Assembly (NCBI RefSeq): GCF_001447155.2
Contig: NZ_CP014754.1
Span: 3,906,001-3,970,000, forward strand
Reading direction: 5' to 3'
From: Marinobacter sp. LQ44
GTDB taxonomy: Bacteria > Pseudomonadota > Gammaproteobacteria > Pseudomonadales > Oleiphilaceae
DNA: 64,000 nt
Of the stretch, positions 55,873 to 61,403 are shown one piece after another. The position numbers were made by a program, and so were the translations under genes. Position 1 is the first letter of the stretch. Each line of letters starts with the position of its first letter. Under the pieces are notes generated by a model. The model was not told the origin of the DNA. It searched no databases and was given only the letters and a program-made list of their open reading frames with translations.

Positions 55873-55949
<77 letters not shown>

Positions 55950-55957
55950 TATAAAAG

Positions 55958-55994
55958 AAAGGCAGATCAGTAACTTACTGGTCTGCCTTTTTTG
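55958..55994 (+). terminator. Terminator after initiator tRNA
   Basis: AAAGGCAGATCAG ... CTGGTCTGCCTTTTTT, a 13-bp stem with one G-T pair and a T run, 9 bases after the tRNA. Confidence 0.9.
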
Positions 55995-56196
55995 TTTTTG
56001 CGGCGACCAAATTCCCCTGTGACGTATATGTGACACATATGTGCCAATCCCTGTGACATCCTATTTTGATGGTTGGGTGAGATTGACCGTAAGTCTTTCT
56101 ATGTCACACGCCAAATAATCCCTCAGCGGACGACTCGGTCATCCCTCATTTAGCAATCCCCTCCCTGGAATTATCTTGGCTATCTTTAATTTTTAC

Positions 56197-56403
56197 CTAT
56201 TGGTCTTCCTGAAACTCCAGCAGATCGCTGACCTCACATTTGAATAATTTACAGAGTTTGTCGAGCGCATCAAGATCGATCCGTTGAGCGGTCTCTTTGT
56301 AAAGCAGAGTCACCGTGTTGCGGTTCAGGCCGGTCTCTCGCGCCACATCCACGATCTTCATTTTGTGCTCGCCCATAATGCGGGCCAGGTGGCATCGAAT
56401 CAT
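56197..56403 (-). CDS. Cro/C1-type (HTH_26-like) repressor of the integrase module
   Basis: A 68-residue protein that is essentially one helix-turn-helix: KIVDVARETGLNRNTVTLLYKETAQRIDLDALDKLCKLFKCEVSDLLE. Single-domain XRE proteins of this kind act as repressors on mobile elements. It is divergent from the excisionase-like gene; the 153-base gap holds two matching 17-base operators around a promoter. No protease or dimerisation domain is present, so how it would be inactivated is unclear. Confidence 0.87.
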   Translation of the reverse strand: MIRCHLARIMGEHKMKIVDVARETGLNRNTVTLLYKETAQRIDLDALDKLCKLFKCEVSDLLEFQEDQ

Positions 56404-56428
56404 CTCTAATTTATCCTTAATGAAAAAA

Positions 56429-56445
56429 TATCATCCAGGATGACA
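56429..56445. promoter_or_regulatory. Operator copy 1
   Basis: TATCATCCAGGATGACA, with the perfect inner palindrome TCATCC-A-GGATGA. It lies on the repressor side of the integrase promoter and matches operator copy 2 in 13 of 17 positions. Confidence 0.75.
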
Positions 56446-56453
56446 AAAAGCGC

Positions 56454-56481
56454 TTGCAAGTGTTCTTTTGTTGCATAAAAT
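56454..56481 (+). promoter_or_regulatory. Sigma-70-type promoter for the excisionase-integrase operon
   Basis: TTGCAA (-35), a 16-base spacer, then TAAAAT (-10). It sits between the two operators; the -10 touches the second, so repressor binding would exclude RNA polymerase. Confidence 0.65.
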
Positions 56482-56497
56482 GTCATTTAGGATGGCA
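56481..56497. promoter_or_regulatory. Operator copy 2
   Basis: TGTCATTTAGGATGGCA, an imperfect palindrome matching copy 1 (shared TCAT..AGGATG.CA). It overlaps the end of the -10 box. Confidence 0.75.
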
Positions 56498-56556
56498 TTC
56501 TGATATAGGGGATGTCTTTTGTTGATCTAGCGTATCGCAACGGAAGGAATTTTTCG

Positions 56557-56802
56557 ATGGAAAACTCTTACACCTATCTGACCACTGAAGAACTGGCTGG
56601 TCGAATCAAATATGACTGTCGGACCATTCGCCAGTGTCTGAAAGACACGGTTCTCCTAGAGGGCAAGCACTACATCAAGCCGTTCGGCCGCCGCAAGATT
56701 CTTTTTCTTTGGGAGGAAGTCGAAAAGGAAATGTTAGACGGTGCCCGGGAGAATGAGTTTTTGGCAATTCCTATGGCGAACGGGGTGGTTTGTCATGGGT
56801 AA
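56557..56802 (+). CDS. Excisionase-like small HTH protein
   Basis: From ATG 56557 (AAGGAA seven bases upstream) the product is 81 residues: MENSYTYLTTEELAGRIKYD, where the TTEELAGRI...CRTIRQC pattern is a MerR/excisionase-like winged helix, followed by KPFGRRKILFLWEEVEKEM, as in Xis-type proteins that bind tyrosine integrases. An upstream ATG at 56512 would overlap the promoter region. It overlaps the integrase gene by 8 bases, so the two are translationally coupled. Excisionase function is inferred from size, fold and position. Confidence 0.75.
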   Translation: MENSYTYLTTEELAGRIKYDCRTIRQCLKDTVLLEGKHYIKPFGRRKILFLWEEVEKEMLDGARENEFLAIPMANGVVCHG

Positions 56803-58018
56803 GGTGAGGGCAAGGAAAGAGACAGGAAAGCTGTATTTGGACTTTATGTACGCAGGTCACCGGTGTCGTGAACAAACGGCACTGCCGGACACGCTTGTAA
56901 ACCGCAAACGTGTAAACGCACTTTTGCAGAAAGTTGAGGCCATGATTCTCTTGGGTGACTTCAACTATGCGGAGTATTTCCCTGATAGTCGTAACCTCAA
57001 GAAGGTTCAAGCCAACCAGGCAGGTGCTGGGACTGGCAGCAACTCAGAAAATGGCAAAGCATCTGATACTCCTCTGTTCGCAGACTTCGCTGACCAGTGG
57101 TTCCTCGAATCGAAAATCCAGTGGCGGAACTCCCACACTCGTAATGTGGAATCCATTCTGGCCAGCTCTCTGAAGCCAGCCTTCAAGGATAAACGGGTAG
57201 GCGAGATTTCCAAACCAGACATTTTGGCTGCGCGTAACAAGATGGCTCGGCGGAAGGGAAGGGGGGCAAGTGGTTTGATGGCGCCCAAAACCATCAACAG
57301 CCACATGACCATTCTGCGGATGATTCTGACGGAGGCGGCGGAGCGGTTTGACTTCACTAATCCCTACCTGAACATCAAGCCGCTGAAGCAGCAGAAGGTA
57401 CACATCGAGCCCTTCTCCCTGAATGAGGTAGAAAAGATCCTCGAAACAGTCAGGGAAGATTACCGCAACTACTACCTGGTGCGTTTCTACACCGGCATGC
57501 GCACAGGGGAAGTTGACGGCCTCAAGTGGGAGCATGTGGATTTCGATAAACGGGAAATCCTGGTGCGAGAAACCCTCATTCATGGCCAGACCGAGTACAC
57601 CAAAACAGATGGCTCTCAGCGGGAAATTCCCATGTTTGGCCCGGTGTACGATGCACTCAAGGCCCAGTACGAGGCCACCGGCAAGCTCAGCAAGTTCGTA
57701 TTTTGCAACCGGCTGGGTGAGCCACTTGACCATAACAACGTGACTAAGCGTGTCTGGTACCCGCTGCTGGAGCATCTCAAGCTAAAAAAACGCCGTCCCT
57801 ACCAGACGCGGCACACAGCGGCGACGTTGCTCCTCGCCTCCGGTGAGAACCCGGAGTGGGTGGCCAGAACTCTCGGCCATTCTTCAACGGAAATGCTGTT
57901 TAAAGTGTATTCCCGATACATCCCGAACCTGACTCGTATGGATGGCAGCGCCTTTGAGCGTCTGATTCAGAGTCGGGTCATCGAAAACGATAAGGAGGCA
58001 GGTGATGAAACTGAATGA
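56795..58018 (+). CDS. Tyrosine recombinase (integrase)
   Basis: From ATG 56795 the product is 407 residues. The N-terminus (MGKVRARKETGKLYLDFMYAGHRCREQT) is an arm-binding DUF3596-type domain; then a SAM-like core-binding domain (about 110-195) and the catalytic domain. The active site is complete: Arg in YTGMRTGEVDGLKWEHV (about 235), Lys in the beta-turn (about 270), His-x-x-Arg as RHTAATLL... (TRH about 338), LGHSS (about 361) and Tyr in KVYSRYIP (about 372). Such enzymes integrate islands at tRNA 3' ends, and an initiator tRNA lies upstream. It overlaps the HD gene by 14 bases. Confidence 0.94.
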   Translation: MGKVRARKETGKLYLDFMYAGHRCREQTALPDTLVNRKRVNALLQKVEAMILLGDFNYAEYFPDSRNLKKVQANQAGAGTGSNSENGKASDTPLFADFADQWFLESKIQWRNSHTRNVESILASSLKPAFKDKRVGEISKPDILAARNKMARRKGRGASGLMAPKTINSHMTILRMILTEAAERFDFTNPYLNIKPLKQQKVHIEPFSLNEVEKILETVREDYRNYYLVRFYTGMRTGEVDGLKWEHVDFDKREILVRETLIHGQTEYTKTDGSQREIPMFGPVYDALKAQYEATGKLSKFVFCNRLGEPLDHNNVTKRVWYPLLEHLKLKKRRPYQTRHTAATLLLASGENPEWVARTLGHSSTEMLFKVYSRYIPNLTRMDGSAFERLIQSRVIENDKEAGDETE

Positions 58019-58958
58019 TCTGCGCCCGTTGACCCAGGAAACGTTCAAAGGCACCTACCGTCTGACAGGGCGTGTTGCTTGTTTTGATGATGAGGGTATC
58101 CCGTATCTGAAACTTCGCTTGAGCAGTTGTGCCAGCGACATTGTTGTATTGGCGGTGATCGGCTCTATCGTGATCCCAGAGCATCTCGGGCATATGGATC
58201 TAGTTGTAGTCAAAGGACAGGCCTGTGTTGGTACGGAGGAAAGTGAGATTTTGCTGACCGATATCCGTCGCCCGTTGCAGGCAGACGTTGCCGGCTTGCC
58301 GGCACTGCAGACTTTGCCACGAACGTTCTGCCCTAAGCCGGAGGCACTGGATCAGCTGGTGGCTGCGGTACGGTCTTTGCGGTCAGCCCCATTACAGATG
58401 TTCATTAAGCGAGTATTGGAGCGCCGTGACAGATTGGAGGTTTTCCTGAAAGCTCCGGCAAGCAGGAATTACCATCACAGTGAGCCCGGTGGTCTGCTGG
58501 CTCATTCCCTGGAGGTGGCGAAGAACGTTCTGGTCATGACGAAGGCCAATGAACCCGAGATGCCTTGGGAGCTTCAGGAGCTCGGTTTCGTCGCTGGTTT
58601 GTTGCACGATATTGGCAAGACCTACACCTATGATACGTGGGGTAAGCCGACAGCAACTGCAAGGTTGTGCGACCATGCCGACATGACTTTAGAGGCCTGC
58701 GCCTACGGCCTGGCTTATCTTGACAAGGTAGACCCTGATGCGGCTCTTGCACTCCGGCACATTTGGACCTGTGCCTCGCCCGGTGCTCGCTACGGTGTCA
58801 GCCCTGCGATGACGCTTGCCCGTTATGTTCGGGACGCCGATGCCCAGAGTGCCATGGCTGACAATCAGCGGAAGGCCTATCGAAAGCGCCAGCCAATCGG
58901 TTTTGGGCGGCTCGGAAACAACACATATTGGCGGCCATCGATAGAAGCTCACGGATGA
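58005..58958 (+). CDS. HD-domain protein, TraI_2/MobH-like, coupled to the integrase
   Basis: ATG 58005 has AAGGAGG six bases upstream; GTG 58002 is an alternative. The product is 317 residues. Residues about 1-110 are beta-rich, suggestive of an OB-like nucleic-acid-binding part. A metal-dependent HD domain follows: YHHSEPGGLLAHSLEVAKNV near 156, FVAGLLHDIGK near 199 and LCDHADMTLEAC near 222. The spacing matches the TraI_2 domain of MobH relaxases and YhaM-type exonucleases, but no relaxase tail is present. A phosphohydrolase or nuclease role is likely. Its start inside the integrase gene means co-expression with excision. Confidence 0.85.
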   Translation: MKLNDLRPLTQETFKGTYRLTGRVACFDDEGIPYLKLRLSSCASDIVVLAVIGSIVIPEHLGHMDLVVVKGQACVGTEESEILLTDIRRPLQADVAGLPALQTLPRTFCPKPEALDQLVAAVRSLRSAPLQMFIKRVLERRDRLEVFLKAPASRNYHHSEPGGLLAHSLEVAKNVLVMTKANEPEMPWELQELGFVAGLLHDIGKTYTYDTWGKPTATARLCDHADMTLEACAYGLAYLDKVDPDAALALRHIWTCASPGARYGVSPAMTLARYVRDADAQSAMADNQRKAYRKRQPIGFGRLGNNTYWRPSIEAHG

Positions 58959-59673: not shown

Positions 59674-59832
59674 TTAACGACAGTGCGACTGTTCCTCACT
59701 CGGCTTAGGTGCGACCGAATGTGTCAGAGCGCGACCTAACACGTAACCGGCTGCCACACCCACCAGCGCCGTCACCGGCCCGATCAGGCCGCCCAATAAG
59801 CCGCCAATAAACATCAGTATTACGCTTTTCAT
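59674..59832 (-). CDS. Tiny membrane protein with glycine-zipper helix, 52 residues
   Basis: ATG 59832 has GGGAGGAG about 6 bases upstream in sense. MKSVILMFIGGLLGGLIGPVTALVGVAAGYVLGRALTH is one or two hydrophobic helices with repeated small residues (glycine zipper), then a short polar tail (APKPSEEQSHCR). No known family. It is divergent from umuD, with the SOS box between the two starts, so it may share LexA control. A longer frame to 59,925 crosses the SOS box and is unlikely. Confidence 0.68.
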   Translation of the reverse strand: MKSVILMFIGGLLGGLIGPVTALVGVAAGYVLGRALTHSVAPKPSEEQSHCR

Positions 59833-59927: not shown

Positions 59928-59947
59928 TACTGTATATTCAGACAGTA
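59928..59947. promoter_or_regulatory. LexA binding site (SOS box)
   Basis: TACTGTATATTCAGACAGTA keeps CTGT and ACAG at the proper spacing with T/A ends, close to the E. coli consensus. It ends 13 bases before the umuD ATG and lies 96 bases from the divergent small gene, so LexA could repress one or both. Confidence 0.93.
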
Positions 59948-59960
59948 TCCGGTGTAAAGC

Positions 59961-60404
59961 ATGTCCTGCATTCTGCTTGGTGACTTTGAGTCCTTCTCTC
60001 GCCTGAACATTCCGATGTTTCTGGAGCGGGTCTCCGCTGGCTTCCCATCGCCGGCGGAGGACTACGTTGAGAAAACCATTGACCTGAACGAGCTGTGCAT
60101 CCAGCACCCGGCTGCCACGTTCTTTGTGCGAGTTCAGGGGGAGTCTATGGTTGAGGCGGGCATCTATCCCGGCGATGTCCTGGTGGTAGACCGATCACTG
60201 CGGGCCAGGCATGGAGATATCATCATCGCCAGCCTGGAAAGCGAGATGACGGTCAAGCAGTTGCATTTGACGCCACCGCCCGTTCGCCTCCTTCCAAGGA
60301 ATTCAGCGTACCGGCCTATTACCGTCGAGGGCGATATGGTGATGGAGGTGTTTGGTGTGATCACCAATGTCATCCGGTCACTCAAGCGGGGAGGGCAGGG
60401 ATGA
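59961..60404 (+). CDS. umuD: UmuD-like self-cleaving S24 protein
   Basis: A 147-residue S24 peptidase. Cleavage site VSAGFPSP (Ala26-Gly27), catalytic Ser62 in VQGESMVEAG and Lys99 in MTVKQLHL are in register with E. coli UmuD (24/25, Ser60, Lys97). UmuD' joins UmuC to form polymerase V for error-prone bypass. No umuC follows; instead the next gene overlaps by ATGA. A SOS box stands directly upstream. The start ATG 59961 has only a weak ribosome-binding site, so initiation at Met19 is an alternative, but that would remove little before the cleavage site. Confidence 0.92.
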   Translation: MSCILLGDFESFSRLNIPMFLERVSAGFPSPAEDYVEKTIDLNELCIQHPAATFFVRVQGESMVEAGIYPGDVLVVDRSLRARHGDIIIASLESEMTVKQLHLTPPPVRLLPRNSAYRPITVEGDMVMEVFGVITNVIRSLKRGGQG

Positions 60405-61150
60405 CACCTGAATCGGCAGTCTCCTTTGTCACCGTAAGACGACGGTTCGATTTTCGCAGCATCGAGGTCGGACGCTGGGTGACGCCCCAGGAGCGGGACC
60501 GGGCATCCGGCCGGTTCGATCAGGCGCTGTGTGATTTGATGACGATCCTGCGAGGACCGGAGCCATTGATCTCCCTGAGGAGCACGCTGGGCCTGCAGTA
60601 TGGCATCGGCGGCCGGCTGGGCGTGGCCGCGCACTACATTCCCGCCACCCGGCAACTGGCGCTGGCCAAGAACGCTGGTGCGGGTAGCCTGGCGCATGAA
60701 TGGTTTCACGCCTTTGATCACTACATGGGTGGCAAAGCTTACCGGAATGCCGGACCGTGCGGCTTCGCTTCAAGTGCCTGGCTGAACAGCGTAAGCAGTA
60801 AACCGCATCCACTGAATGAACGGCTAGCCGCCTGCTTCCAGGCCATCATGCTGACGGAGGACGGCACTGCACCCAGCACTTTGTTCCGGGCCTCCCAGGT
60901 GGCTGATCAGCACTTGAAAACGGTTTATTACGCCAAACCGGAGGAGCTGTGCGCCCGCGCCTTTGAAGCTTTTATTGAAGACAGTCAGCCGTGTAACCGA
61001 TTTCTGGTAAACGGAACCGTTCACTCTGATGAAGCCAAGGCGGGTCTGTATCCGCAGGGCGAGCATCGCCAGCGGATCAATGACACCTTTCAGTGTTACT
61101 TTGCGGCGCTCGGGGCTGCGTTGTACCGGGAACAGGCCAAAGCCGGATGA
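60401..61150 (+). CDS. CLCA_X / LPD1-like protein with HExxH zinc motif, coupled to umuD
   Basis: A 249-residue protein overlapping umuD by 4 bases (ATGA). Residues 96-110 read SLAHEWFHAFDHYMG, an HExxH motif with aromatic/acid spacing seen in LPD1 domains of phage-associated large polyvalent proteins and in the CLCA_X group. A downstream ELCARAFEAFIED (about 187-199) offers a third metal ligand. The rest (GLQYGIGGRLGVAAHYIPATRQLALAKN) is mixed alpha/beta. It is probably a metallopeptidase or metal-dependent binding protein induced after DNA damage. Its substrate is unknown. Confidence 0.82.
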   Translation: MTPESAVSFVTVRRRFDFRSIEVGRWVTPQERDRASGRFDQALCDLMTILRGPEPLISLRSTLGLQYGIGGRLGVAAHYIPATRQLALAKNAGAGSLAHEWFHAFDHYMGGKAYRNAGPCGFASSAWLNSVSSKPHPLNERLAACFQAIMLTEDGTAPSTLFRASQVADQHLKTVYYAKPEELCARAFEAFIEDSQPCNRFLVNGTVHSDEAKAGLYPQGEHRQRINDTFQCYFAALGAALYREQAKAG

Positions 61151-61403
61151 GGAAGCCTGTGTTCGCCTTGGTGGATTGCAATAATTCCGGGGCTTTACTA
61201 ACAGTTAGATGCGATTTTTTCTAGAGAATACAATCGGTTAGGCTAGGTAGCTTTTTTCACGTTTTTTGTTTTTGAGGTGGTCGTCGCACGTTAATCGGGC
61301 TCTGCCCATCCGCTATCCATGTGGCTCCAAAGATCAGGCATGGAAGGGCATGGCAGGACTCCACGCGGCAATCGAGTTTCTGGCTGGGTATTACACAGAC
61401 TTG
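61151..61403. other. Intergenic region, AT-rich then foreign-looking
   Basis: About 250 bases after the HExxH gene. The first 120 are AT-rich (TTTTTTCTAGAG, TTTTTTCACGTTTTTTG); no hairpin good enough for a terminator was found. The rest leads into transposon remnants. No supported ORF. Confidence 0.5.

Follow-up and report, generated by a model that had tools for sequence, protein, structure and literature searches.

The locus lies in a 64-kb stretch of the Marinobacter sp. LQ44 genome, referred to here as the window, and is read on the forward strand. It begins with a LexA (SOS) box, CTGTATATTCAGACAG, at 59930..59945, which is the single exact CTGT-N8-ACAG match of the window; matches with one mismatch numbered 16 versus 21.8 expected, which is not above chance. 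The box ends 15 nt before the start of umuD (59961..60404), whose product of 147 amino acids (aa) scored 159.3 bits against NF007621 (cut-off, 110), has an S24 domain that starts at residue 19 (Pfam) and, by a residue check, retains the A26-G27 cleavage site, S62, and K99. Overlapping the end of umuD by ATGA is a second gene, called X here (60401..61150), which encodes a 249-aa CLCA_X protein, a predicted zincin metallopeptidase that scored 333.1 bits against NF041907 (cut-off, 260) and has a C-terminal LPD1 domain at residues 169 to 240 (PF18796, 92.8 versus a cut-off of 27). X in turn overlaps, again by ATGA, a stub made up of nucleotides 1 to 38 of umuC (61147..61184). A 52-aa glycine-rich membrane-type protein is encoded divergently on the reverse strand at 59674..59832, with its start 97 nt from the LexA box, and a tRNA-Met gene and a tyrosine integrase gene are located upstream of the locus on the forward strand (55873..58018). 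A preliminary description, made from the letters of the window alone, had named a near-consensus LexA box ahead of umuD, a UmuD with Ala26-Gly27, Ser62, and Lys99 intact, and a 249-residue HEWFH protein, CLCA_X/LPD1-like and overlapping umuD by ATGA, and each of these was confirmed.

Throughout the LQ44 genome, the LexA-box pattern gave 52 matches, versus 14 with a reversed control. Similar boxes were found upstream of imuA (208 bits; cut-off, 150), dinB (479; cut-off, 256), and recN (553; cut-off, 418), of a yebG-like gene (36.7 bits, below the cut-off of 161), and of a lexA-like gene whose identity was read from its sequence. Because similar boxes precede these genes, the type of box found in the window is credible in this genome. 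Judged by its box, the umuD-X promoter would be a member of the LexA regulon, for which LexA binding and induction by damage are predicted. Elsewhere in the genome, a LexA-box-like site (L015, genome 3120367-3120382) lies across the start of an ORF, as read in its longest frame; this ORF scored 613.8 bits against the ISCR clade Ia transposase family, below the cut-off of 925.

The LQ44 genome (4.44 Mb, one contig, 99.97% complete) contains one match over the cut-off of the UmuD profile, which is the umuD of the window; lesser matches to this profile were a LexA-like protein (82 bits) and a 1310-aa frame (21 bits). Two Y-family polymerase matches were found, DinB and a 543-aa frame downstream of imuA that we take for ImuB. 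The DUF4113 profile had no match in the whole LQ44 genome, and a search with the full UmuC of a relative gave nothing beyond the DinB gene (28%) and, where X ends, a stub of 16 residues, in keeping with the original observation that no umuC lies beside the pair. The umuC stub is 95% identical to the intact umuC of a related locus (L094). Nucleotide identity to that locus (95% from 57058 on) spans X and ends 38 nt into umuC at 61184; beyond this point the DNA has no umuC match, and the reading frame of the stub continues to a stop at 61222-61224. Because the identity passes X and stops 38 nt into umuC, the alignment indicates that umuC is cut off in the window and that X is not its replacement, making the locus a truncated umuD-X-umuC operon. 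The preliminary description had placed X where umuC should be, a reading that is ruled out by the 38-nt stub behind X and by the umuD-X-umuC order of relatives. In Pseudomonas, the umuC homologue rulB is described as a known insertion hotspot for integron-like elements (PMC4542609); visual inspection of the 2.8 kb that follow the stub revealed no integrase. The product of the window umuD is a UmuD by sequence, and its partner UmuC is found in relatives and not in the LQ44 genome. With pol V missing, the LQ44 UmuD may act only via other partners, such as DinB or RecA.

The active-site motif of X is H99-E100-x-x-H103 (HEWFH). Of 113 family members, 112 carry HExxH, 111 of them by a pattern match and L191 by a separate check; in L164, a relative from the wider group, it is replaced by HEWFR. 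Six residues, H99, E100, H103, D106, E182, and E189, were invariant in a 50-row alignment. D106 is separated from HExxH by two residues (HEWFHAFD), versus three in the HExxHxxxD printed in PMC3650047. The invariant E182 and E189 are both in modelled helix 180-193 and are candidate third metal ligands; Glu187, which had been proposed for this role, has to be discarded, residue 187 being Ala by a residue check. The model of X (pLDDT 90.9) has a zincin-like core around the HExxH helix and zincin structural matches. Among PDB structures, the anthrax lethal factor protease domain headed the 50 rows shown in the VIA-align table, a resemblance of fold only, and SprT or IrrE structures were absent from these 50 rows. 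In the viral structural table, SprT-like and IrrE-like phage proteins appeared at weak E-values (0.18 and 0.20), and the best matches, as well as the distant relatives of X, were phage and plasmid polyvalent proteins. A Pfam scan of X at E 0.1 returned LPD1 alone, with no SprT-like and no DUF955 (ImmA/IrrE-like) domain, and a sequence search for relatives of solved structure at E 1 returned none. Because HExxH and Glu are conserved and the model is confidently zincin-like, X is, most likely, a zinc peptidase of the cytosol. The family was founded on Marinobacter Maqu_3852 in PMC3650047, where its metallopeptidase activity is given as a prediction and just 12 of 115 representative members are reported to be without hits to mobile elements; LPD1-LPD40 and the polyvalent metallopeptidases were introduced in PMC5512222.

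The X protein of LQ44 is 96% identical to that of Marinobacter vinifirmus. For X, dN/dS was 0.04 to 0.19 in 17 of 17 pairs, solo loci included (two pairs had saturated dS >2), and 0.04 to 0.17 for the window gene versus relatives; for the window umuD versus three relatives, it was 0.04 to 0.07. Left out of these ranges is a umuD value of 0.84 for L313 versus L319, which was treated as an artefact, the in-frame stop of one copy having probably upset the codon alignment. The dN/dS values indicate that X is under purifying selection.

We compared 61 X genes of what we call the SOS lineage. Besides the gene of the window, these comprise all 60 members of the lineage that exceeded the family cut-off in a search of 124 genomes. 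Lineage was assigned by score; G443:C3, a further match over the cut-off, about 60% identical, was left out because it is broken into two pieces and of unsettled lineage, and L329 was included, the TGA with which it is listed falling outside the part aligned to the window X. The 61 genes group in a single clade (SH-aLRT 86), and a second clade (95) is made up of 31 genes of a sister lineage. Both umuD and umuC flank X at 10 of the 61 loci (the umuD of L307 and L318 runs into contig ends); umuD occurs with a umuC relic at three (the window, L313, and L319) and without umuC at one (L328), and the umuD copies of L319 and L328 have an in-frame stop. A umuD relic only was found at six loci, relics on both sides at one (L340), a umuC relic only at one (L311, a weak case of 42 nt at 80% that extends over the end of X and may be a chance match), and a mostly complete umuC without umuD at one (L327); at the remaining 38, neither gene is beside X. 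The relics of umuD, which lie between the box and X at seven loci, have four kinds of breakpoint (L312; L322 and L332; L337, L340, and L341; and L339), and umuC relics occur at five loci, the window included. The order umuD-X-umuC is found in genomes G032, G031, G013, and G022, and the L094, L095, and L096 operons have 4-nt overlaps at both the umuD/X and the X/umuC junctions. The pairing of an SOS-boxed umuD with a putative metallopeptidase, as first described for the window, was borne out in the genus, umuD being directly upstream of X in 14 of the 61 cases. Genome G499 has two SOS-lineage X genes, one before an internally deleted umuC without umuD (L327) and one behind a stop-bearing umuD (L328), and G032 carries, besides an intact umuD-X-umuC operon, a condensed relic (L355, G032:C11, ~850175-850560) in which parts of umuD and X and, on visual inspection, of umuC can be made out.

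For each of the 61 genes, 700 nt upstream was scanned for a strict LexA box, defined as CTG...CAG with at least 12 of 16 consensus bases. Such a box was found upstream of X or umuD in 54 cases, 12 of them preceding umuD (at -470 or -471) and the other 42 no more than 132 nt from X, while only 6 of 1,445 control windows of 250 nt, taken from 80 named loci, reached the strict score. The seven genes without a strict box were L307 and L318, at contig ends, and L106, L308, L321, L327, and L348, which amounts to 5 of the 59 loci having enough upstream sequence; near-boxes were seen by eye in L308 and L348. In the sister lineage, none of 31 loci had a strict box (295 nt scanned; 31 of 36 such genes read). 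With a DUF4113 match used as a proxy for umuC, 34 of the 55 genomes with an SOS-lineage X had none, although a fragment of DUF4113 is present in one of these, G003; a Fisher's test of X versus umuC (odds ratio, 2.7; p 0.025), uncorrected for kinship, is not relied on. Because boxes are found in 54 of 61 cases and 34 of 55 genomes have no DUF4113 match, the gene X is separable from UmuDC as judged from these genomes. Dependence of X on UmuD was rejected on the 47 of 61 X genes without a full umuD upstream and on the same 34 genomes, and the earlier suggestion that UmuD regulates or partners X is to that extent unsupported, as far as a necessary partner is meant. The preliminary description had held that homologues mostly without umuD or a LexA box would speak against the coupling; in this genus most X genes do lack a full umuD upstream, but 42 of these 47 still have a strict box at most 132 nt from X.

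A wider contig search, which covered partly the same assemblies as the other genome sample, was read by script for the best 80 of 457 confirmed loci. Among these best 80, 6 were umuD-X-umuC (including Thalassolituus marinus and a Saccharospirillaceae MAG), 2 were umuD-X, 16 had X behind a strict box, 55 had none of these, and 1, in Marinospirillum celere, had a umuD fragment ~700 nt upstream. Of the two non-Marinobacter operons, a strict box before umuD was scored only in L233; the match of L221 began late in umuD, and its promoter was not properly scanned. In a tree of 113 proteins, the loci with a box or umuD directly upstream were all in one 61-row group (SH-aLRT 100), except for the boxed Mangrovitalea L205, which is outside it. 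The same group holds 16 Marinomonas genes and a plasmid gene of M. nanhaiticus that have no strict box; the scan covered 220 nt at the 16 Marinomonas loci, and four plasmid copies (three from Vibrio and that of M. nanhaiticus) were all without one. A link to the SOS response general to CLCA_X was rejected, given strict boxes at 0 of 31 sister-lineage, 0 of 4 plasmid, and 0 of 16 Marinomonas loci. Because strict boxes are rare outside the SOS lineage (L205 is the sole exception among the best 80 loci) and the recurrent neighbours there are, by eye, unlike repair genes, these surveys indicate that the CLCA_X family is not repair-specific as such. LQ44 itself has a second CLCA_X gene (L008:8589-9362, genome 2408589-2409362), 58% identical and of the sister lineage, which has no strict LexA box and whose neighbours were read as nrdA- and nrdB-like genes (a ribonucleotide reductase pair) and a D-lactate dehydrogenase gene; members of this lineage are found repeatedly in the genus. 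A umuDC pair is located 1.1 kb downstream of X in Marinomonas flavescens (L191), where a LexA-box-like site lies shortly after X.

The operon form umuD-X-umuC occurs in several separate branches of the X tree, a quick tree with many weak forks. In a quick UmuD tree of 42 rows, the 16 UmuD proteins with an adjoining X were all on one side, with at least six changes (L285, which is cut by a contig end, was counted as without X). Because two operons of this X-bearing UmuD lineage that have no X (L279 and L280) retain its last 27 nt, X must also have been lost at times while umuD and umuC stayed. Scans seeded with X give no measure of how often this happened, and X may be kept no more strictly than umuD or umuC.

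At seven loci (L098:6991-8964, L099, L101, L102, L103, L310, and L330), the box and X are followed in a row by genes for an SbcD-like phosphoesterase and a Rad50/SMC-like ATPase, possibly forming an SOS-controlled Mre11-Rad50-like operon. This link counts only about once because all of these loci are close kin within one branch of the X tree. The E. coli SbcD/Rad50-like counterpart is described as cutting next to a protein block (PMC6265447).

The divergent 52-residue protein had been put forward as a third member of the unit. Its ORF exists, and relatives were found in umuD/X/umuC loci of nine other genomes, in some of which the gene is kept even after loss of umuD or X, but it is absent from others; it is possibly an accessory member of the locus. 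On the upstream side, 55873-58958 holds the tRNA-Met gene, then the tyrosine integrase gene, and then a gene for a TraI_2/MobH-like HD protein, and relatives have parts of the stretch from tRNA-Met to the umuC stub in common. The flank is matched at ~84-85% up to 59654 in G031 and M. vinifirmus, in which other DNA intervenes before umuD. The tRNA-Met/integrase stretch is a possible entry point of an island; no exact repeat of at least 14 nt of the tRNA-Met stretch was found within the window and the next 15 kb.

In the established SOS pathway, DNA damage causes LexA to be cleaved, and UmuD is made and matures itself. We propose that LexA represses umuD-X and that its damage-triggered cleavage would induce both genes, as their box implies, with translation continuing via the ATGA overlaps from umuD into X and formerly into umuC. 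X would then be a zinc peptidase with a part in damage tolerance that requires neither UmuD nor UmuC, because genomes devoid of both still have it downstream of LexA boxes and because, in one lineage, it directly precedes the SbcD-like/Rad50-like pair. Its substrate would be a protein attached to or stalled on damaged DNA, since the two kinds of partner seen beside X, a translesion polymerase and the SbcD-like/Rad50-like pair, both work where DNA is blocked. Taken together, the results show that the SOS arrangement is real, recurrent, and, as far as our searches reach, unreported, with a truncated version in the window. On balance, X is probably an SOS-induced zinc peptidase recruited to damage tolerance within what was a umuD-X-umuC operon, of which the present locus is a truncated form. 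More speculative, and a proposal we hold only tentatively, is that CLCA_X clears or trims a protein stuck on DNA so that pol V can pass or the SbcD-like/Rad50-like nuclease can cut behind it; by analogy, such an X would, just as tentatively, be a bacterial counterpart, in function and not in descent, of SPRTN with its translesion polymerases and MRN.

Of the other explanations, the one that fares best, although we think it unlikely, is that X is a protein of mobile-element conflict (an anti-phage, anti-plasmid, or establishment factor) that has acquired an SOS promoter and has phage or host proteins as its targets once damage stirs prophages or plasmids. The polyvalent proteins of phages and plasmids (PMC5512222, PMC3650047) that make up its distant relatives and best viral structural matches would fit this, as would the integrase and tRNA-Met genes that adjoin the locus; yet many of the solo loci are in three recurring neighbourhoods (7, 9, and 9 loci), which looks like inheritance in place, X has no PADLOC match at E 0.1, and it is linked to pol V and to the SbcD-like/Rad50-like pair. 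Dependence of X on UmuD survives only within another, less likely account, in which X is a dedicated regulator of pol V that would set the length of mutagenesis by trimming UmuC or by cutting UmuD, either to UmuD' or until it is destroyed, the solo genes being leftovers. The finding that X is boxed and under purifying selection at loci without umuD and umuC is at odds with this account, as is its presence in genomes without a DUF4113 match, and some operons of the same UmuD lineage exist without X, even though X sits between umuD and umuC, overlaps both in separate branches of its tree, and has its operons all in one UmuD lineage. Least probable is that the window pair is decaying debris, with pol V dead and umuD and X on their way out: umuC is indeed cut off, G032 has a relic made up of umuD and X fragments (and, by eye, one of umuC), and two other X-adjacent umuD copies carry stops, but in the window both ORFs are intact with key residues present, dN/dS is low for each, and the LexA box is unbroken.

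Pol V operons are among the best-studied SOS loci, and one lineage of them has a built-in putative zinc peptidase that is also able to stand alone behind a box. That X, as the SOS-induced peptidase we favour, often stays behind a LexA switch even at loci that have lost the polymerase genes suggests that bacterial damage tolerance includes a protein-cutting step not recognised so far. If X does remove proteins from DNA, lesion bypass in bacteria would be preceded by an induced step of proteolysis. In addition, the LQ44 genome, in which UmuD is intact and no UmuC was found, is a natural test of solo UmuD action. Among the matches listed in the open-licence literature, no title or abstract start concerned umuD-X-umuC or a LexA-boxed CLCA_X.

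Compared with known systems, the locus resembles a umuDC (pol V) operon in its LexA box, its self-cleaving UmuD, and the downstream umuC of relatives of the window but differs in having a peptidase gene between umuD and umuC and, in the window, only a stub of umuC. X resembles the CLCA_X family (NF041907), being above its curated cut-off and having HExxH and then a conserved Asp, but its lineage is LexA boxed, and the word UmuD does not occur in PMC3650047 or PMC5512222. A survey of umuDC and imu neighbourhoods reported SRAP and DUF955 zincins (PMC3765255), in passages that do not name CLCA_X; like X, the DUF955 zincin is a zincin recruited to an SOS polymerase operon, although X has no Pfam match to DUF955 and the operon is another one. 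A review of crosslink repair describes proteolysis by SPRTN and then polymerase bypass (PMC10815813), and X may work like Wss1/SPRTN in the sense of a metalloprotease teamed with a translesion polymerase and an Mre11-Rad50-type nuclease; X has no Pfam SprT match, and this parallel is one of function only. Finally, the UmuDAb protein of Acinetobacter is likewise a homologue of UmuD whose role is not that of serving UmuC (PMC4807011, PMC11332147). UmuDAb is described in these sources as needing its N-terminal domain for repression, whereas the UmuD of LQ44, at 147 aa and with S24 from residue 19, has no extra N-terminal DNA-binding domain, and its genome, in a further difference from the UmuDAb system, contains a LexA-like protein.
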